A DNA stretch of 10,034 bases, taken from positions 1 to 10,034 of the forward strand of contig JAUXFG010000144.1 in the NCBI GenBank assembly GCA_030620115.1. The letters are read 5' to 3'. Under the pieces are notes generated by a model. That model worked only from the letters and a program-made list of their open reading frames with translations. It was not told the origin of the DNA and did no database searches. Both the position numbers and the translations under genes were made by a program. This document shows, in pieces, positions 1,290 through 10,034 of this stretch (positions are counted from its first letter, which is position 1; each line of letters starts with the position of its first letter). The DNA is from Candidatus Fermentibacterota bacterium. GTDB lineage: Bacteria; JAFGKV01.

Positions 1290-2480
1290 TTAGACCGACC
1301 GAGGGGGGAGTTTCGCTAAGAAATCACAGAATTGTGACATGTGCTCCAGGTAACGATCCCAGGAGTATCGCTCGCCCAGTCTGCGTCTGGCCTCTGTGGC
1401 AATTCTGTGGGCGAAATCCTGGTCGCCGAGGATTCGGAGGATACCATTGGCAAAGGCATCAGGCTTCGGCTCGACCAGCACGGAGATCTTGTCGTCGAGC
1501 ACCTGCGTATGCGTTTCAAGCCTCGTGGCAACGATCGGTCTGCCTGACTGCAAGTATGAATAGATCTTGAGGGGAGTATTCTGGCCCACTTTCCTTGGGG
1601 AGATAAGGATTGATGCCATGTGCATGTAGCCGGGCATCGCGTCCGACGGTTGTTGCCCCGTCAACCTGATCCAATGGTCGACGCCGCGATCTCTCGCCAA
1701 ATCCTGTAGGGCCTTGACTTGTTCAGGCTCTCCCCCCACGAAGAGAAAAAGAGCATCAGGCTCCTGCGCTACCACTCTCGGGATGGCTTCTAGCACGATA
1801 TCGAGCCCCTGGTTTACCTCCAATGTACCGGTATAGAGAATGATCTTCTTGTCTCGAAGGCCAAGTTCCGCCCGGAGGGCTGTGGATCTCTGCGGCACCT
1901 CGGGGCCAGGGGGATCGCATACCGGGGGGTTTTCGATGAGGAACACGGGAGTGGTGGAGTTAATCTCCCGCACGAGGTCTTTGAGCCACGGGCAGACCAC
2001 GATGATTGCGGCGCTTTTTCTCAGTATCCAGCGTTCGGTCCTGCGTGCCCATGCCAACAGGATCCTCGAATGCGTGAAATTGTAGTTCACCAACTGCTGG
2101 GGCAGGCTCGAATGCATGTCATATATATGGGGCTTACGCAGGAGCTTTGCCAAGATCAGGCCGATGACCGCGCCCTCCTCGTGTGACTGTACGATATCCA
2201 CGTGACGGAGCGCAGGCAAAAGGAGCAAAGCCCTCATGGCCAGTACCATATCCAGCGGAAACTTCACCCAGGAAGGCCCGATAGGCACATGTCGAAGGAA
2301 TAGGATGGGGAAGCTTCGATGCACCCGAACTCCGGGTATCTCTACTTGTTGCCCAATATGATAGGTAACAAGATCAACACGATGCCCCAACGCGCTCAAG
2401 GCCTTCAGACGCTCGCGAACGCTGAAGGGCGTACCCCGGAACTGGAAAAAAGGCTGAGGAGATATCATGAGAATATGCAT
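1290..2480 (-). CDS. glycosyltransferase family 4 protein
   Basis: A 396-residue GT-B fold glycosyltransferase, usual length for GT4, expected to be cytoplasmic or loosely membrane-bound and to transfer a sugar from an activated donor during polysaccharide, glycolipid or exopolysaccharide synthesis. The N-terminal acceptor domain (about 1-170) opens with MHILMISPQPFFQFRGTPFS, including the glycine-containing loop that follows the first strand. The donor domain begins near 210 with LYTGTLEVNQGLD (216-228) and has the nucleotide-sugar segment SPRKVGQNTPLKIYSYLQSG (294-313). In many GT4 enzymes this reads KxYEYLxxGxPIV; a serine (S308) replaces the usual acidic residue, as I recall from a subset of homologues. 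Start ATG 2480 is chosen because the Rossmann strand begins there; an AGGAG lies 13 bases upstream, somewhat distant. It ends in TAA. The donor and acceptor are not predictable, and no other polysaccharide gene is in view. Confidence 0.88.
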   Translation of the reverse strand: MHILMISPQPFFQFRGTPFSVRERLKALSALGHRVDLVTYHIGQQVEIPGVRVHRSFPILFLRHVPIGPSWVKFPLDMVLAMRALLLLPALRHVDIVQSHEEGAVIGLILAKLLRKPHIYDMHSSLPQQLVNYNFTHSRILLAWARRTERWILRKSAAIIVVCPWLKDLVREINSTTPVFLIENPPVCDPPGPEVPQRSTALRAELGLRDKKIILYTGTLEVNQGLDIVLEAIPRVVAQEPDALFLFVGGEPEQVKALQDLARDRGVDHWIRLTGQQPSDAMPGYMHMASILISPRKVGQNTPLKIYSYLQSGRPIVATRLETHTQVLDDKISVLVEPKPDAFANGILRILGDQDFAHRIATEARRRLGERYSWDRYLEHMSQFCDFLAKLPPRSV

Positions 2481-2530
2481 CTACCGGCCCTTTCTCCTAT
2501 TGTGAGCGTTCATGGGCTGAGAGGTTCAGC

Positions 2531-2600
2531 GTTCTGGGTTCAGCGTTCTGGGTTCAGAGTTCTGGGTTCAGAGTTCTGGGTTCAGCGTTCTGGGTTCAGA
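2531..2600. repeat. 14-base tandem repeat array
   Basis: Five contiguous units of GTTCTGGGTTCAG plus A or C occupy 2531-2600, with degenerate units on both sides (2521-2530 and 2601-2620). The units differ only in the last base. The array starts about 50 bases upstream of the glycosyltransferase start, so it lies in the leader or promoter region of that gene. It has no spacers and is not a CRISPR. Similar GGTTCAG-type arrays occur between genes in deltaproteobacterial genomes (recalled, not checked). Confidence 0.9.
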
Positions 2601-2659
2601 GTTCAGAGGTTTAGGGTTCAGGGGGACTCTGAACTGCTGATTCGTGGAATCTGAAAAGC

Positions 2660-2697: not shown

Positions 2698-3801
2698 CTA
2701 TTCAAGCTCGGTCTTGAGCCGTCGCAAGATTTCCATGGCCTCTGCGCCGGGAACATTTTCTTCAACACCAAAGGCGCCGTCCATTCTCCCCTTCATGATG
2801 CCTCGAGAGGTCATGAGCCGCACGCAGTTGTAAAAGGGAGATTGTGGTGAGAGATCGCTGAAATCAGCCTTTGTCTCACCAACATATTTCATCTCCAAGG
2901 ATGGATCCTGGAATGCTTCCACCAGGATTTTCTGCATCGCGAACGCCAAATCCGCCCGCGCGATTTTCTCATCAGGGAGGAACTCGCCACCTGGGTATAC
3001 GTCCAGTATGCCGCATGCGAGCATCTTCTCGCAGTAACCACGTGCCCAAGAGCCTTCCACATCCTCGGGAAGAGAAACCTCAGCCTTCCGGTGCCGATAT
3101 ATTCTATCCAGGGGAAGAAGCTCATCGAGCACGGCGGAGAGCTCTGCTCTCGTGATTGCAGGCGATGCCGCTACCTTCTTCATGACCTCCGATTGACCCG
3201 CAGTGGCCCGGCGGAGTTGCTGGAGTCGCTCCCAGCTCTCAGAGGCTTTCATAAACTGTGGATCGATCTCCAATGCATTTCGATACGATCCCTCGGCCAG
3301 ATCCGGCTCATGCATCTCCTCTTGGGTCATGCCCTTGTAGAGCCACGCCTTCTTGTAGGCATCGGGCTGCTCCTCGTCCTCTCTGGTCTTGGTCTTCAAT
3401 GCCTTGTCGAACTCCTTGATGGCATCTTCCATCTTCCCTTGTGCCATCCGAACGCGCCCCAGGCCGACTCTGGCCAGGGCGTATCGATCATCCTGATCGA
3501 GGGCCTCTTTCATCTCATCCTCCGCGGCCTCCAGATCATTCCGTGCGAGAAACACAAGGCCCAATCCTTCATGCGCGGGGGCGAACGGAGTCTTGGCAGT
3601 ATGCGCCAGATCCCTTGATCGTTGGAACATCTCCTGGGCAAGATCAAGCCTGCCCTGCTCGTAGTACTCCATCCCTTGATGATACGCACCTTCGGGTGTA
3701 TCCAAGATACTGAACGGCTTCAGCTCTTTCTGTGCTCCTCCACATGCCAAGAGTAGGGTCAAGAGGGCAACGAGCAGTAGTCCTGTCTTATTCCTATTCA
3801 C
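2698..3801 (-). CDS. outer-membrane lipoprotein with TPR repeats and SLH-like repeats
   Basis: A 367-residue protein starting with GTG 3801, fixed by AAGGAGG at 3808-3814. Residues 1-20 are a lipoprotein signal with lipobox LLAC (C20); glycine follows the cysteine, so transport to the outer membrane is expected. Residues about 36-195 hold TPR helices (for example YHQGMEYYEQGRLDLAQEMF and ALARVGLGRVRMAQGKMEDA), a protein-binding scaffold. From about 213 there are three SLH-like segments: ITRAELSAVLDELLP; WARGYCEKMLACGI with ADLAFAMQKIL (252-293); and FSDLSPQSPFYNCVRLMTSR with AMEILRRLK (314-363). SLH domains bind cell-wall-linked polymers in other bacteria. The gene follows the FlgT-like gene by 13 bases and is the last of the operon; it ends in TAG. 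A link between outer membrane and peptidoglycan is my inference. Confidence 0.85.
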   Translation of the reverse strand: MNRNKTGLLLVALLTLLLACGGAQKELKPFSILDTPEGAYHQGMEYYEQGRLDLAQEMFQRSRDLAHTAKTPFAPAHEGLGLVFLARNDLEAAEDEMKEALDQDDRYALARVGLGRVRMAQGKMEDAIKEFDKALKTKTREDEEQPDAYKKAWLYKGMTQEEMHEPDLAEGSYRNALEIDPQFMKASESWERLQQLRRATAGQSEVMKKVAASPAITRAELSAVLDELLPLDRIYRHRKAEVSLPEDVEGSWARGYCEKMLACGILDVYPGGEFLPDEKIARADLAFAMQKILVEAFQDPSLEMKYVGETKADFSDLSPQSPFYNCVRLMTSRGIMKGRMDGAFGVEENVPGAEAMEILRRLKTELE

Positions 3802-3814
3802 GGATAGCCTCCTT

Positions 3815-4972
3815 CTATCGGTCGCACGCAGTGACGATGATCTTTCTCTCGTCCATGGTCGTCAGGCGGAAGCCTGGATCGCGATCGATACGTGTCGCAA
3901 GGTAGACGAGCTTTTCCGGGTAGCGGAGTTCGATGGCGCCTGATCCATCTTTGAATTCCCCGGCCTCAACCGCTTCGACCCAACGAAGCTTGCTCACGAG
4001 GTTAAGCAGCCTTCTGTACGAGGCGAGGCTTGGGAGCCCCTTGGCCTCGACACGCACGGTCTTCATCTTGTTGACCAAGTACTCGGAGTTCATCCAGGAG
4101 AGCACTTTCTTGACGATCTCTGGCGCTGCTTTTTCCATGGCCTTCTCGCTGGCATCGAATTCGTCCTGGCCGAAATCCTTGATGCGCCGCACCTGTTCCT
4201 GGCCAATGATCTTGCCGGTCTCCACTTCCACCATCCTGCACGTGACTCTCGCATGGGCTGAAGGGATACTGATGGAGGGGGCGTACTCGCTCTTATTGGC
4301 GTGAACAGAGGTTTTTGCCGTGCCTTTGATCACGAGGTTCGAGAGGAATCGTAGACCGATCATCTGTGCTTGCTCCACGTCCCCCTCGATGCGGGTGATC
4401 TCGGAATCCCTTTGTCTAACCATCTCCACGTGTTCCCGATCCCGTACATCGTACCCGGCGTCGATGAAGCCTTCGACGAGCTCGTTCTCGATCAACGAAT
4501 CATCGATGGGCTCACCAGCCATCTCTTCGTCAATCTGTATGATGACGGTAAGATTGCTGGTAAGGTTTGTCTTGATCTGTTCCTCGAGCTCTGCCTTCTC
4601 CACCTTGGCCGAAATCTTGAGACGGTAGAGATCTCCTTCGGCCCCCTCACTCACGACTTGGTAGTCCGTGATCATGCCCGATGAGGTGTTTCGTACCGTG
4701 GCCGAGAGGAGAAGCTCGTTTTGCACAAGGGTCTCCGCGTCCACAAGAACACCCACGGCCTTCTCCAGGGCTCTGACGCGCGCATCAATGATGGCCTCGT
4801 CCCTGGCCTGTGCCACGTCACCGGTCAGAATGGTCCCCACGCCCTCTGCTTCCACGATCTCCGCTTGCAGCGGGAGCGGAGAAAGCACAAGGATCAGAAA
4901 GAGAACACCTGGCGCAAACCCGAGTCGCTCAGCCCACCACGAAGACAACCTTACACTCCTTGAGGAACTCAT
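3815..4972 (-). CDS. FlgT-like periplasmic protein
   Basis: A 385-residue secreted protein (signal peptide with hydrophobic core about 20-36, cleavage after LQA37). Residues about 40-130 fit the FlgT N-terminal domain: an alanine-rich helix (ARDEAIIDARVRALEKAVGV) followed by NTSSGMITDYQVVSEG and strands LYRLKISAKV. Residues about 140-300 resemble the TolB/CsgG-like middle domain. The last 80 residues (from KTVRVEAKGLPSL) form a further alpha/beta-looking domain I cannot name. In Vibrio, FlgT forms the H ring around the flagellar basal body together with FlgO and FlgP; no flagellar gene is visible here. The start is uncertain: ATG 4972 gives the full ORF but has no ribosome site, whereas TTG 4948 (residue 9) follows AAGGAG at a proper distance. 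It overlaps the upstream gene by 44 bases (20 with TTG) and ends in TAG. Confidence 0.78.
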   Translation of the reverse strand: MSSSRSVRLSSWWAERLGFAPGVLFLILVLSPLPLQAEIVEAEGVGTILTGDVAQARDEAIIDARVRALEKAVGVLVDAETLVQNELLLSATVRNTSSGMITDYQVVSEGAEGDLYRLKISAKVEKAELEEQIKTNLTSNLTVIIQIDEEMAGEPIDDSLIENELVEGFIDAGYDVRDREHVEMVRQRDSEITRIEGDVEQAQMIGLRFLSNLVIKGTAKTSVHANKSEYAPSISIPSAHARVTCRMVEVETGKIIGQEQVRRIKDFGQDEFDASEKAMEKAAPEIVKKVLSWMNSEYLVNKMKTVRVEAKGLPSLASYRRLLNLVSKLRWVEAVEAGEFKDGSGAIELRYPEKLVYLATRIDRDPGFRLTTMDERKIIVTACDR

Positions 4973-5834
4973 TCTTCATCTCAGCGGCCAGGATCTCAGA
5001 GGCATCGTCCACGGAGAGGAGCACGTCGGCATTATGGGCTCCTGCTGCGGCAACCGCCTTGACCACGATCGGATTGGCGCCTATCCGCTCGGTAAGGGCC
5101 TTGGCTTTGTCAATGCTGTCGGTATAGCCAACTACTCCGAACCGGATTGCTGCCGATTGTTCGATATTGACCCGTCCATACAGCTCTTCATCTTTTCCTT
5201 GCACAAGAATCCTGGGCGCTAGTGCCGGTCTTACGCCGATTCCGGTGGCGTCCACGATCAAGCCTGTGGCCTCGGGAGTAGCCGCTGTTCTGGATGCGCT
5301 TGCGGCGAACAGCGAAGGCGGTGAGGCCTGTGTCTTGCGTTCCATCCACGGCACCACCACGGAGCTCAGCCCCTTTTCGCCGGTGAGGGTGAGACCCATG
5401 GTGATCTCGACCCAGATCGACCCGTCGTCAAACTCGGTCTTATTGAGAGCGAGCTCCTGTGCGCCCGTGATGAGCCCCTCGGTGGAGGTTTTCAGGCGGA
5501 CATCCTTTTCCACTTCGTTGACGAAGAGGTTATCGGAATCTATCCGCACACCGTAAATGATCTCCGCGAGCTTCTCCAAGGCGAACATGCGGGCGGTTTT
5601 CAAGGACATGGAGTAACACTGTGCCTGGGTCTTTGCCAACTCGATGTTGCAAGTGGCGCCTGCCGTGACCTCGAGATAGCCGTCCTCCCAATTGATCCTG
5701 CTCTTGTACTCCTCACTTATGGTGCGTTCTTCCAACGCGGCCTTGGCACTTCTCTCCTCCTCCCACCATTTTGGTTGGGCTGATGCCACCGACACCACAA
5801 GGAGAAGGATTCCGATCGCGAGCTTCATTTTCAT
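4929..5834 (-). CDS. secreted LPP20/FlgP-like protein, short paralogue
   Basis: A 301-residue protein with a Sec signal peptide (1-19, ASA then Q20) and no lipobox. The mature protein begins with WWEEE (23-27). Residues about 45-165 form the LPP20/FlgP-like domain, including the helix MSLKTARMFALEKLAEIIYG (76-95) and strand pairs around GSIWVEITMGLTL. Residues about 190-301 form a second conserved domain: TGLIVDATGIGVRPALAPRI, LYG, GANPIVVKA and FLKECKVVFVV. Cysteines C62 and C73 (C-x10-C) and C294 match positions in the long paralogue upstream, suggesting disulfides. Only a short, low-complexity linker (166-189) joins the two domains. GGGAGG at 5841-5846 precedes ATG 5834. It lies 61 bases after the long paralogue, pointing to tandem duplication. 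The function is unknown; an outer-membrane or periplasmic ring or complex with the FlgT-like protein is inferred. Confidence 0.8.
   Translation of the reverse strand: MKMKLAIGILLLVVSVASAQPKWWEEERSAKAALEERTISEEYKSRINWEDGYLEVTAGATCNIELAKTQAQCYSMSLKTARMFALEKLAEIIYGVRIDSDNLFVNEVEKDVRLKTSTEGLITGAQELALNKTEFDDGSIWVEITMGLTLTGEKGLSSVVVPWMERKTQASPPSLFAASASRTAATPEATGLIVDATGIGVRPALAPRILVQGKDEELYGRVNIEQSAAIRFGVVGYTDSIDKAKALTERIGANPIVVKAVAAAGAHNADVLLSVDDASEILAAEMKNEFLKECKVVFVVG
4956..4961 (-). promoter_or_regulatory. ribosome binding site favouring a TTG start for the FlgT-like gene
   Basis: AAGGAG on the minus strand ends seven bases before TTG 4948-4946, inside the last codons of the upstream gene. It supports TTG at residue 9 as the true start, which leaves a shorter and more typical signal peptide. 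ATG 4972 has only weak purine-rich sequence before it. Confidence 0.5.
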
Positions 5835-5848
5835 ACGATCCTCCCTTC

Positions 5849-5890
5849 GAAACCTAGAAACGAGGAAACCACGAAGCGTTCATAGGTTTC
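5849..5890 (-). other. imperfect hairpin between the two paralogues
   Basis: GAAACCTAGAAACG (5849-5862) pairs with CGTTCATAGGTTTC (5877-5890) at 12 of 14 positions around a 14-base loop. It fills most of the only sizeable gap in the operon and lies just before the ribosome site of the short paralogue. It could affect mRNA processing or relative expression of the two genes. No T-run follows, so a terminator is unlikely. Confidence 0.45.
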
Positions 5891-5895
5891 AGTGT

Positions 5896-7953
5896 TCATG
5901 CCTGAGGCAGGATGGTGATTGCTACCTTGCACTGCTTCAGGAATCCTGTCTTTTGATCCGCACGCTCAATCAACATGGCGTCTTCCCGCGAGACAACCAG
6001 GTCCGACCGGTGCTTTCCCGTGGCGTCTACCGCCCGTACGACCAGTGGATTGGAACCTATGCGCTTTTTTGCTTTGTCACGGGCCGTCTCCGGCGAGTCG
6101 GACCAACTCGCATAACCCTTGCTCAGTGCCACTTCCCGGGAGGCGGTGCGCTCGCCGTACACCTCTTCACCGTCCTGGGAGAAGATCCTGGGCTTCAATG
6201 CGGCCCGTGCCCCCAGGTAGGAGGCGTCGAGGATGAGACCAGTGAAGTCCTTGCCTACTGACTCGCTGACATTGGTGGAAGTCAGATGCGCGCCCTGAGC
6301 AAGATCTCTCGCGCCGCGGTCTACTGTGCGCAGAGAATCAATGAGGGTTCGGACAAGACTCGCTGCTGCCGTGGCTTCATGGGTCGCCTGCTCTAGCTCG
6401 TTCGAATCACTGCTCGACGTCAAAGCCACGGCGTGAATTTGCTGTGCCTGTGTTTCTGCCGCGGCCGTACGCTCCTCGAGACTCGCGACTCGTTGCTGCA
6501 GAGTCTTCGCCTCTTCCAAGCTCTGCCGCAACTCCTCTATGGATGTCTGCATCTCCTCCGTACGCTCTGTGGCAGAGAGCTGCTCCACCGCCGTGGCAAC
6601 CTCAGCCAGGGCAGCTGCTCCTTGTTGCTGAAGCAGCTGCTGTCGCTGCCTCGTTTTGACCAGTTCCGTGTTGATCCGCGAATTCTCCTGAAGAAGCCGC
6701 TGGATCACCTCATGGTTGGAAAAAGACCCACGGATGCTGAGGCTGTCAATGGCAAGTCTGGCTTCTCGCAACTCTGAAGAGAGCCCCGAGATCTCTCCTC
6801 GGGCGGCCTTTGCCTCTGCAAAGGCCCGTTGTGCCTCTTCCAGGCCGGCCTCGGCTGCAGGGACGCCTTCCGTCACCTGTGCATTGGCTCCCAGAAGAGA
6901 GGAGAGAGCCTCTTCAGTTTTCCGTCTCGCGCCATCAGCCAGCTGCCGCGCTTCTTCAACCTCAGACTGAAGTCGTTTTGTCACGTCCAAGGCCTCGACG
7001 AGCTCACTGCTTCGAGTGCTTGCCGCTTCGCCGGCGTCCCGTGCATCCTGGGCCGCTTTCTTTGCGTCTTCAGCCGCTTGTTCGAGTCGCCGTGCCATGT
7101 TGCGAGCTTCCTGAGTGGCCCGTACAACCTCCTCGAGCTCTGCCGACGAAGGGTATTGGGCTTGGATCTCTCTACCCTGATCGTCAACCTTTGCTGCAGT
7201 TTCGGCCAGAGCCTGGGCCAAATCTCTTGCCTCTGTTGCCAAACGAGATGCGGCGGCTGCCTGTTGGAGCGCCTGCCTCACTTCGGCATGATCGCTCCCG
7301 GTGGCAATGATTTGCTTCGCTTCCTCTGCGGACTGAAGTGCTTGTTCAACCAGTTGTTCGAACCGGTCGGCACGAGCTCTCGCTTCCTCCATTTCCGTTT
7401 GCGTGCGCCGCAAATCAGCCTGAAGCTTGAGGATCTGGGGAGATGATTCAGCAACCGGGATATGTGTGATCACCGCCTGGCTGAGTCCCTTTGAGCCGTT
7501 TATGAGTAGACCCAACCGAACACGAACCAGCAGCGAGCCGTCCTGCATGGTGGTTGGCTCTTCACTGATGATGTGTGCATTCGTGATGAGCCCCTGGACC
7601 GCGGTGTTCAGGCGTGTGTTCTTGATGACTTCGTCTTCGAATGTATTGGATGAGCTGATGTAGACGCCATGAATGGTCTCCGCGAGCTTCTCATACGCCA
7701 AGGATCTGGCGGCTTTTAGAGCCATGGTGTAGCAGTGGGATTGGTTGACCGCCAGAGATGGATCACAACTCGCCTCTCCCATGGCCTCAATGTAGCCGTC
7801 ACCCCAATTGACCATGGTGGCATAGTCCGCACCCTTGTCAGTTGCTTCGAGAGGAGAAGCCGAGGCCTCCTCTTCCCACCAGTTATCCGCGCCCGCGCCG
7901 GGCGCCAACAGGAACACCACCAGAAGGAAGATCGGGAGAATTCGTCGCAACAT
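5896..7953 (-). CDS. secreted LPP20/FlgP-like protein with long central coiled coil
   Basis: A 685-residue protein with a Sec signal peptide (1-22, then DNWWEEE). Residues about 45-168 form an LPP20/FlgP-like domain (MALKAARSLAYEKLAETIHG at 77-96; cysteines C63 and C74). Residues about 570-685 repeat the C-terminal domain of the short paralogue (TGLILDASYLGARAALKPRI, GSNPLVVRAV, FLKQCKV with C675). Between them, about 172-550 is almost all Ala, Glu, Gln, Arg and Leu with heptad-like spacing and few glycines or prolines, a predicted coiled coil that could be over 500 angstroms long if continuous. So the two terminal domains are held apart by a rod, as in envelope-spanning proteins. GAGGAG at 7961-7966 sits seven bases before ATG 7953, and the gene starts 13 bases after the TPR gene. 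The C-terminal domain belongs to no family I can name. Confidence 0.82.
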   Translation of the reverse strand: MLRRILPIFLLVVFLLAPGAGADNWWEEEASASPLEATDKGADYATMVNWGDGYIEAMGEASCDPSLAVNQSHCYTMALKAARSLAYEKLAETIHGVYISSSNTFEDEVIKNTRLNTAVQGLITNAHIISEEPTTMQDGSLLVRVRLGLLINGSKGLSQAVITHIPVAESSPQILKLQADLRRTQTEMEEARARADRFEQLVEQALQSAEEAKQIIATGSDHAEVRQALQQAAAASRLATEARDLAQALAETAAKVDDQGREIQAQYPSSAELEEVVRATQEARNMARRLEQAAEDAKKAAQDARDAGEAASTRSSELVEALDVTKRLQSEVEEARQLADGARRKTEEALSSLLGANAQVTEGVPAAEAGLEEAQRAFAEAKAARGEISGLSSELREARLAIDSLSIRGSFSNHEVIQRLLQENSRINTELVKTRQRQQLLQQQGAAALAEVATAVEQLSATERTEEMQTSIEELRQSLEEAKTLQQRVASLEERTAAAETQAQQIHAVALTSSSDSNELEQATHEATAAASLVRTLIDSLRTVDRGARDLAQGAHLTSTNVSESVGKDFTGLILDASYLGARAALKPRIFSQDGEEVYGERTASREVALSKGYASWSDSPETARDKAKKRIGSNPLVVRAVDATGKHRSDLVVSREDAMLIERADQKTGFLKQCKVAITILPQA

Positions 7954-7966
7954 GATCCTACTCCTC

Positions 7967-8773
7967 TCAGTTGCAGGCTTTTTGCATATAATGTCTTGCA
8001 GCCCTGTTTGCGGGGTCGACCCCCTTCAGCCGTTTCCATAGAGCGCAGGCTTCTTGCTTTTTCCCCTGCTTCAACGCGTTCAGCGCGAGTTCGTGATAGA
8101 CCTTTGCCAGGTTGAATCGCGCTTCCTGATTCTGAGGATTGATTTGCAAGACCCTTTGCCATTGGCTGATGGCGCCTTCGAGGTCATCCTTGGCATAGAG
8201 GAGCCATCCGAGTCCGTTCCGTGCGGGCTGATGCCGAGAGTCCAAATCAAGAGCCTTGCGATAGGAGAGCTCTGCATTGGCGCTCATCTCCAGCCCATGG
8301 AATGTCGCGCCGAGACGGTAATGAGTCTCAGGCTCACCTGCGTCGGCATCTCGAGAACGCTTCAAATGCGTCAGCGCTTGTTCCGCCTGTCCCCGAAGCA
8401 GGAAGAGCGCGCCAAGGAAGTAGTGGGCCGTAGGGTTCTCGGGATCATCCTTCAGTATTGCCTCGAACTGGCCCATGGCCTGTTCGAGTTTCTCCCCATG
8501 GAGGGCGATCACACCCAGCCATAGTGCCGCGGTCTCATTTCCCGGGTCCAGGGCCTGGACGTAGTTGAACTGTGTGGCTGCGTCAGAGAGTCGATTCTGT
8601 TTCAGCAGGATCAGGCCCAGGAGGTTTCGCGCATAAGTACTCGACGGATCCAGTTGCAGCGTCCTATTCAATTTGACTTGGGCGGCGGGGTACTCACCAG
8701 AGAGGTGATCCAGATCCGCCTCCAGGATCAGATGCGTTGCTTCGTCGGTTGATGTCGCCAAGAGACTGAGCAC
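7967..8773 (-). CDS. TPR-repeat protein, probably secreted
   Basis: The ORF of 268 residues from GTG 8773 is almost entirely seven consecutive TPR units (about 12-45, 46-79, 80-113, 114-147, 148-181, 182-215 and 216-256), each ending with a pattern such as LQLDPSS, QALDPGN or LQINPQN. TPR solenoids bind other proteins. The start is doubtful. The same frame upstream of GTG reads RKTFIISLALVLSLLA (8803 to 8756), a good signal peptide that GTG 8773 would cut in half, and GTG has no ribosome site. No ATG, GTG or TTG occurs in this frame just upstream; only ATT 8842 (AGGAG close before it) and ATT 8827 are candidates. The gene overlaps the amidase by at least 46 bases, so coupled translation is likely. 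It ends in TGA, 13 bases before the next gene. Confidence 0.82.
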   Translation of the reverse strand: MLSLLATSTDEATHLILEADLDHLSGEYPAAQVKLNRTLQLDPSSTYARNLLGLILLKQNRLSDAATQFNYVQALDPGNETAALWLGVIALHGEKLEQAMGQFEAILKDDPENPTAHYFLGALFLLRGQAEQALTHLKRSRDADAGEPETHYRLGATFHGLEMSANAELSYRKALDLDSRHQPARNGLGWLLYAKDDLEGAISQWQRVLQINPQNQEARFNLAKVYHELALNALKQGKKQEACALWKRLKGVDPANRAARHYMQKACN

Positions 8774-9978
8774 CAGGGCGAGGGAGATGATGAATGTCTT
8801 GCGAGATAAGGTTTGAGCTGGCCCAATAGGCTGCCCACGAATGTCTCCTGGAACGTTTCGCTCGAAAGAAGCTGCTCTTCCCGAGGATTGCTGATAAAGG
8901 CAGCCTCCACCAGGATGGAGGGCATTTTTGCCTTGCGCAAGACAAAGAAACTGGCGCTCTTCGTTCCCCTGTCCTTAACGGGCAACTGGCGTCCAAGACC
9001 AGCCTGAACATCTTGTGCGAGGTGACTCGAGTCTTCCCAAAGAAGCTTGCGTTGGAGCTTGAAGAGTACCCACTCGATGTTGACGGGGCTCTCCTCTCGC
9101 AGTGTCTCCTCGGGTTCCGCGAAGCTGTTCTCGTACGCGGCCACACGGGCGGCTTCCTTGTCTGAGGCCCTATCCGAGCAAAAGAATGTCTCTGATCCTC
9201 TTGCTTTTCTGTTTTCCGCTGCATTGCAGTGGAGCGACAAGAACAGGTCCGCACGGTATTGATTGGCGGTGGTAGTGCGGTCGGAGAGGTTGAGGTAGTA
9301 ATCCTCCGTCCTGGTGAGGTAGGTCTTGGCAGAGCTTTGCTTCTCGATTGCTTTGGCGAGCCTCAGGCCCAACAGGAGTGTGATGTCCTTCTCCTTGGTT
9401 CCCGCCTTGCCCACCGCGCCGGGGTCATGCCCGCCGTGGCCGGGGTCGATCACGATATTCCTGATTCTCAGGTCCAATTTTCCTCTGGAGCCAAGGTCTC
9501 CCAATTCCGCGGATTCTTGCCGTGCCTTCTCTTGGAGATGCGCCATCTCAGGCGATAGAGGTGCGGTGCTTGGCGAGATGGATGCCCCAAATATGTCGAT
9601 GAGGATTCGTGGCGGCGTGCCGACCTTCTTTATGTGGACCGTGGCTCCCGTGGAGGTATCGAGCTCGAGCACGGTTTTGAACATCTCATCGGAAGGCGTG
9701 AAGATCCTCATGGCTTTCAGGGGACCAGAGGAGAACCGTTTGCTATCCTCCATGGGCAGATACAGGGCTCCCTGCAAGGTCACGGATGCCGGATCCCCCT
9801 GGAGAAGCGAGATCGGGCATTCGCCATCCAGTTCAAGAACAAGACGTGTCTGGTCCGGAAGCAACAGCGTATGGATGCGGCCGACCACGGGAATCAATCC
9901 GTCGTCGTTTCCCCATAGACACGCGGGGATAGAGCCTGCCACTAAGGGAAGTGTTCTCAGGAAGGTGCGTCTACGCAT
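8728..9978 (-). CDS. N-acetylmuramoyl-L-alanine amidase, AmiC type (AMIN plus amidase_3)
   Basis: A 416-residue zinc amidase that cleaves the bond between N-acetylmuramic acid and L-alanine in peptidoglycan, acting in the periplasm. The start RRRTFLRTLPLVAG is a twin-arginine (Tat) signal, as in E. coli AmiA and AmiC. Residues about 30-132 are an AMIN localisation domain. The catalytic domain spans about 174-392: DPGHGG with zinc ligand H181, E196 in TKEKDI, H250 in SLHCNA, and catalytic E358 in LVEAAFISN; all expected residues are present. The last 20 or so residues are a Ser/Trp-rich extension overlapping the TPR gene. A C20 after SIPA is a poor lipobox. Start ATG 9978 has no Shine-Dalgarno; a C-rich repeat lies directly before it, and the frame stays open to the window edge without ATG, GTG or TTG. 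It is the first visible gene of the operon. Confidence 0.92.
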   Translation of the reverse strand: MRRRTFLRTLPLVAGSIPACLWGNDDGLIPVVGRIHTLLLPDQTRLVLELDGECPISLLQGDPASVTLQGALYLPMEDSKRFSSGPLKAMRIFTPSDEMFKTVLELDTSTGATVHIKKVGTPPRILIDIFGASISPSTAPLSPEMAHLQEKARQESAELGDLGSRGKLDLRIRNIVIDPGHGGHDPGAVGKAGTKEKDITLLLGLRLAKAIEKQSSAKTYLTRTEDYYLNLSDRTTTANQYRADLFLSLHCNAAENRKARGSETFFCSDRASDKEAARVAAYENSFAEPEETLREESPVNIEWVLFKLQRKLLWEDSSHLAQDVQAGLGRQLPVKDRGTKSASFFVLRKAKMPSILVEAAFISNPREEQLLSSETFQETFVGSLLGQLKPYLARHSSSPSPWCSVSWRHQPTKQRI

Positions 9979-9986
9979 GGGATTGG

Positions 9987-10034
9987 AGATGGGGTGATGG
10001 GGAGATGGGGTAATGGGGTGATGGGGAGATGGGG
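9987..10034. repeat. 8-base G-rich tandem repeat with quadruplex potential
   Basis: Starting with GGGG at 9991-9994, the plus strand carries units TGATGGGG, AGATGGGG, TAATGGGG, TGATGGGG and AGATGGGG, giving six GGGG runs separated by four bases and a 24-base higher-order period. It continues past the window edge. Such spacing can form a G-quadruplex on the template strand of the amidase gene (C-rich in its mRNA leader). It begins nine bases upstream of the amidase ATG, where the ribosome site should be. Confidence 0.85.

Follow-up and report, generated by a model that had tools for sequence, protein, structure and literature searches.

A conserved, flagellum-independent module of FlgP/Tp0624-, FlgT- and SLH-type genes that probably encodes an undescribed envelope structure in Candidatus Fermentibacterota and other bacteria

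Layout of the operon and its copies in sister genomes

The window (the whole stretch of DNA that was analysed, 10,034 nucleotides) is an entire contig, on which six minus-strand open reading frames follow one another in one direction with successive gaps of -46, +13, +61, -44 and +13 nt (Table 1). The first-pass annotation had described six linked, co-directional genes here, and this description was confirmed by the ORF positions, by Pfam and fold assignments and by the order of the genes in a second genome. Its placement of the DNA in Desulfobacterota was wrong: the genome belongs to a separate phylum sampled by three genomes, i.e., that of the window (G000), G001 and G002, which are 98, 94 and 82% complete, respectively.

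Table 1. Genes and repeats of the window, with the basis of each assignment
Feature	Coordinates	Strand	Basis or remark
AmiC-like N-acetylmuramoyl-L-alanine amidase	8728..9978	-	Pfam Amidase_3 179 bits, 1e-52; NCBIfam AmiC model over 88-392; motifs read in sequence
TPR protein	7967..8773	-	TPR matches; called start GTG; frame translation
LPP20-like A	5896..7953	-	paralogue profile; phmmer to FlgP chains; G001 ortholog
LPP20-like B	4929..5834	-	profile; Foldseek; VIA-align
FlgT-like protein	3815..4972	-	FlgT_N just under cut-off; Foldseek; VIA-align; start overlaps LPP20-like B end
TPR-SLH lipoprotein	2698..3801	-	Pfam SLH and TPR; lipobox LLAC, TPRs, two SLH stretches
GT4 glycosyltransferase	1290..2480	-	Pfam; matching G001 position
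14-bp tandem repeat GGTTCAGAGTTCTG	2523..2623	n/a	between SLH and glycosyltransferase genes
Tandem repeat GATGGGGT	9988..10034	n/a	contig break; cuts off first operon gene

In G001, from another genus of the same family, all six genes were found in identical order with ~57-70% identity (57% for the amidase, 62% for the TPR protein), and with ~40-48% identity for LPP20-like A. The genes are therefore real, since both order and sequence are kept in a second genus. The G001 operon consists of eight genes, with a PG-binding/FlgO-CsgG-like gene upstream of the six and a glycosyltransferase (60% identical to that of the window) downstream. The right end of the contig lies inside the GATGGGGT repeat, so that the operon of the window is truncated on its 5' side. 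Thus, the operon exceeds six genes: an upstream gene is missing here, and the operon probably ends with the downstream glycosyltransferase gene, which is linked in G001. The gap between the SLH and glycosyltransferase genes is 217 nt in the window, where it contains a tandem repeat, vs 36 nt in G001. Both intergenic gaps of the operon carry short tandem repeats (Table 1).

The first gene of the G001 operon lies 3 nt upstream of the six-gene set and encodes 503 residues with TPRs, a PG_binding_1 domain (58 bits), a CsgG/LpoB/FlgO-like region and a weak FlgT_C match. The CsgG (PF03783) score of 45.7 vs a cut-off of 20.8 and the FlgO (PF17680) score of 25.0 vs 22.6 place this protein in the FlgO/CsgG family, and LpoB also scored above its cut-off. 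The G002 contig covers the first gene, again with TPR, PG_binding_1 and FlgO/CsgG-like regions, followed by the amidase and TPR genes, and it breaks off within LPP20-like A; the third genome thus keeps the order of these leading genes, and most gaps in the operon measure from a few to a few tens of nt. No match to FlhA (PF00771) was found in any of the three genomes, which argues against a flagellar H/T outer ring in this phylum. Each genome also contains a second Amidase_3 gene, so the operon amidase has at least one rival for a role in cell separation.

Domains and folds of the encoded proteins

The amidase begins with a twin-arginine type signal (MRRRTFLRT) and carries the zinc/catalytic motifs DPGHGG, KEKD, SLHCNA and VEAAF, as read in its sequence, together with a weak AMIN-like region and an insertion of ~40 residues in Amidase_3. 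It shares with AmiC-type division amidases the Tat-type signal, Amidase_3 with its insertion and the catalytic motifs, and these features predict an AmiC-type enzyme. Unlike those amidases, it has an AMIN domain that is only weakly recognized, and its gene sits in a ring-protein operon.

The annotation had reported export signals on all of the proteins except possibly the TPR protein. Export signals were read in the sequence, and the TPR protein is probably exported as well, because its G001 copy opens with a signal peptide and because the window contains an in-frame hydrophobic stretch, RKTFIISLALVLSLLATS (~8803-8747), which begins just 5' of the called GTG and has no canonical start codon. 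This oddity would be explained by a rare start codon or by a small frameshift. The amidase extends ~24 residues past the C-terminal end of its sister, into the stretch (8747-8803) that probably encodes the signal peptide of the TPR protein.

Members of the FlgP/LPP20 family, which has an SHS2-like fold, form the Campylobacter basal disk and flagellar rings of Vibrio. LPP20-like A consists of a signal peptide, an N-terminal SHS2/LPP20-like domain (~30-167), a long coiled-coil insert and a C-terminal domain like D2 of Tp0624 (~559-680); both end domains were found by the paralogue profile, and phmmer matched the protein to FlgP chains (9hmf at 5e-6). Its matches to Cpf1 and SMC proteins were rejected as chance coiled-coil matches. 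LPP20-like B has a signal peptide followed by an SHS2/LPP20-like D1 and a D2 in tandem, as in Treponema pallidum Tp0624 (PDB 5jir), which its profile matched across D1 and D2 at 9e-12, with FlgP chains at ~1e-8. The structural model of LPP20-like B (mean pLDDT 69) gave 5jir as its best Foldseek match (2e-12), and VIA-align returned Z scores of 16.2 to 5jir, 7.4 to Lpp20 (5ok8) and 6.3 to FlgT. The superposition on 5jir had an rmsd of 11.3 over 197 residues, which suggests that the two domains are not placed as a rigid pair. The D1-D2 tandem of Tp0624, a protein that differs in having a third, OmpA-like domain outside the match, is thus matched full-length by profile and by fold; this tandem is without known function (PMC5104382).

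The relation of D1 to FlgP and Lpp20 is also seen in profile matches to four FlgP-type chains (E 1e-10 to 6e-7), which place D1 among SHS2-like domains. Neither window protein matched Pfam LPP20 (PF02169) at E up to 1, and NCBIfam likewise failed to recognize them; a relative within the same module (L103) passes Pfam LPP20 with 27.2 vs 25.9. The claim of two LPP20/FlgP-like proteins therefore stands by profile and fold matches and falls short of the Pfam family. The window proteins differ from the FlgP/LPP20 family in their extra D2, in their non-flagellate genome and in lying below Pfam LPP20 detection. In the FlgP literature, the formation of rings goes together with an insert that follows the SHS2 helix (PMC12222027). 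D1 aligns to FlgP without gaps across this ring-insert segment, from the SHS2 helix to the second strand, where the model has pLDDT <50 at 98-120. All three LPP20-like paralogues of the phylum (A, B and a third at L017:6000-6914) carry a WWEEE motif near the mature N-terminus, directly after the signal peptide, and a cysteine pair, GATC...QCY; other lineages mostly have GxGAPNP.

The FlgT-like protein consists of an SHS2-like N domain, a TolB-N/CsgG-like middle domain and a C domain. FlgT_N scored 27.9 bits (3.5e-6), just below its cut-off of 28.8. The best PDB match of the model (pLDDT 68) was FlgT of the Vibrio H/T ring (3w1e; Foldseek 1e-11), followed by a chain of the LPHT ring entry 8z5n, and VIA-align to FlgT gave a Z score of 11.8 with an rmsd of 13 over 210 residues. 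The N and middle domains of FlgT thus provide the best fold match, whereas the window protein differs in its sub-cut-off FlgT_N, in the lack of a flagellum and in its linkage to TPR-SLH and LPP20-D2 genes. Among named families, the nearest to the FlgT-like proteins of the module is LipL46 of Leptospira (9.6e-24 over 31-373 for L103, 2.1e-5 for the window), and these proteins score far below its 400-bit cut-off.

The TPR-SLH protein scored 41 bits for SLH vs a cut-off of 20.8, and the lipobox Cys is invariant across 22 relatives, making it a lipoprotein with an SLH domain. A CsaB-type pyruvyltransferase (PF04230) is absent from 18 of 23 module genomes, that of the window among them; its absence from most of them makes it probable that the SLH domain binds something other than the classical pyruvylated polymer.

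Distribution of the core module

The TPR-SLH lipoprotein is conserved along its length far beyond the phylum (37% identity to G008), with relatives, most of them nearly full-length, in 42 of the 386 sampled genomes at E <= 1e-30. We annotated the neighbourhoods of these relatives with iterated profiles. An LPP20-like gene lay near the TPR-SLH gene, mostly directly adjoining it, in 34 genomes from 19 family-level lineages, and the triad of LPP20-like, TPR-SLH and FlgT-like genes shared one locus in 22 genomes from 14 such lineages, including a G149 locus with the LPP20-like gene on the opposite strand. TPR-SLH and LPP20-like genes co-occurred in 35 genomes vs 7.3 expected, with a significance that is indicative only because the genomes are related. 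Named carriers of the LPP20-like/TPR-SLH pair included candidate division KSB1, Delongbacteria, Cloacimonadota and UBP11, among which the FlgT-like gene was seen only in the KSB1 locus, in the stretch read. A scan with a 7-row TPR-SLH profile returned 11 true module loci, and the other 24 matches were weak (E 5e-10 to 9e-4) and mostly to Firmicutes-type SLH proteins; a profile search of the genome contigs with LPP20-like B alone gave no matches.

The expected conservation of linkage thus held for the core triad and failed for the six-gene set, which was found only in the three-genome phylum of the window; in the loci read outside it, there was no sign of the amidase, the additional TPR gene or the LPP20-like copy with the coiled coil. 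FlhA was absent from 15 of the 22 triad genomes, representing 9 family-level lineages, and in flagellate genomes no FlhA match fell inside the retrieved module neighbourhoods. The core is therefore neither confined to flagellar loci nor devoid of conserved linkage, and the FlgO/P/T-type module without a flagellum that had been proposed is borne out by FlgO (in the sister genomes), FlgP and FlgT relatives conserved in genomes without FlhA. FlgO-, FlgP- and FlgT-type parts occurring together could also be a relic of flagellar outer-ring genes that outlived the flagellum itself. To our knowledge, flagellar rings contain neither the D2 domain nor the TPR-SLH lipoprotein, which speaks against such a relic, as does the lack of FlhA from the module neighbourhoods of flagellate genomes. 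The triad genomes without FlhA led us to reject it as the main reading, and we regard it as very improbable.

CsgG-like and FecR genes were frequent in the triad loci, and CHASE2-cyclase genes occasional. The CsgG match is full-length in some relatives (128 bits over 9-208 of 210 residues in L103), and several triad loci had none. Full-length CsgG, a GT4 gene within the operon and the middle domain of FlgT, which folds like CsgG, PelC and TolB-N, would fit an export apparatus for a fibre or polysaccharide, in which a CsgG/FlgO-like outer-membrane pore is stabilized by the LPP20-like, FlgT-like and SLH proteins while the glycosyltransferase and amidase make or route the product. We consider this unlikely, since the CsgG-like domain is only partly covered in this phylum, where it lies inside a large TPR/PG-binding protein, several triad loci lack it, and no secreted substrate or curli-like gene was seen to recur beside the module. 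The suggestion of a secretion or motility machine likewise found no counterpart, as no secretion or gliding machine was seen to recur there.

Among the 25 of 106 unlabelled neighbours listed, there was no flagellar or secretion family. Crp-type cNMP-binding regulators were the commonest among the unlabelled neighbours listed (4/57). Crp-type regulators and CHASE2 proteins adjoin L084, L085, L119 and other loci, with CHASE2 in 5 loci, one of them with a cyclase domain, hinting at cyclic-nucleotide control of the module.

A candidate ring or lattice between outer membrane and cell wall

These loci make up a conserved, flagellum-independent gene module for FlgP/Tp0624-, FlgT- and often FlgO/CsgG-type proteins with a TPR-SLH lipoprotein. 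No description of the module was found in the open-access literature, in agreement with the annotation, which knew of no system of this composition. Since the three core genes stay together in many distantly related lineages, the cluster probably encodes an undescribed structure that links outer membrane and cell wall, a function that we infer from the encoded proteins. The outer-membrane/peptidoglycan complex suggested earlier thus remains, as an inference, the best reading. In the form that we favour, with a probability of roughly 0.5, it would be a ring or lattice anchored to outer membrane and peptidoglycan, specialized here with a division-type amidase.

In such an assembly, the D1 domains of the LPP20-like proteins would use the FlgP-type insert to polymerize laterally, building rings or sheets beneath the outer membrane that the FlgT-like and FlgO/CsgG-like proteins may cap or nucleate. 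The TPR-SLH lipoprotein would anchor the assembly in the outer membrane, its SLH end pointing toward the wall, and the first gene product would bind peptidoglycan through its PG_binding_1 domain. In the phylum of the window, the AmiC-type amidase, exported by Tat, may couple the assembly to local cutting of the wall, probably during division or where an envelope structure passes through the wall. The FecR and CHASE2-cyclase partners suggest that assembly could be sensed or regulated in other lineages.

A SpoIID gene directly follows the module LPP20-like gene in G172, of an unrelated family, and the third LPP20-like paralogue adjoins a TPR-SpoIID gene in G000 and G001. The occurrence of SpoIID beside LPP20-like genes in two unrelated lineages favours the ring or lattice; the amidase link, which is found only in this phylum, the second Amidase_3 gene of each genome, the low confidence of the modelled insert, the lack of a CsaB-type enzyme from most module genomes and the detection of only two SLH stretches count against it. 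The SpoIID genes, the AmiC-like amidase with a PG-binding first gene in its operon and the LpoB-like matches could also be expected of a regulator of peptidoglycan synthesis and division in the manner of Lpo, Tol-Pal or NlpD, in which, with no large ring involved, LpoB- and TolB-N-like domains and the SLH and TPR proteins exert control over the amidase and synthases from the side of the outer membrane. Such a regulator, which we think unlikely, leaves the conserved FlgP-/FlgT-type core with its ring segment unexplained, and no amidase was found in the module loci read from other phyla.

Ring proteins of the FlgP and FlgT types have mainly been described as accessories of the flagellar motor. 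The ring or lattice may, more tentatively, be a widespread and undescribed envelope machine of many non-flagellate lineages, built of TPR-SLH-anchored rings or sheets of FlgP/Tp0624- and FlgT-type proteins, from which the flagellar FlgO/P/T rings would have been borrowed as one specialization; this broader reading is possible rather than probable. A conserved non-flagellar locus that combines such ring proteins with an outer-membrane SLH lipoprotein hints at the possible source of flagellar outer rings. It also places the orphan D1-D2 tandem of Tp0624 in a testable context and supplies candidate genes for outer-membrane-associated structures that electron tomography has revealed but that are still unassigned; none of these was found to be tied to the module in the open-access literature.

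Finally, a second D1-D2 locus is present in G000 (L017, contig C131, 4432-12404) and G001 (L032, contig C138, 61-6297), where the third paralogue, LPP20-like C, is followed by the TPR-SpoIID protein. This locus opens with a giant, repeat-rich secreted protein with a FlgD/T9SS-like C-terminal end, and it also encodes membrane proteins that resemble, by eye, Nuo/Mrp subunits.
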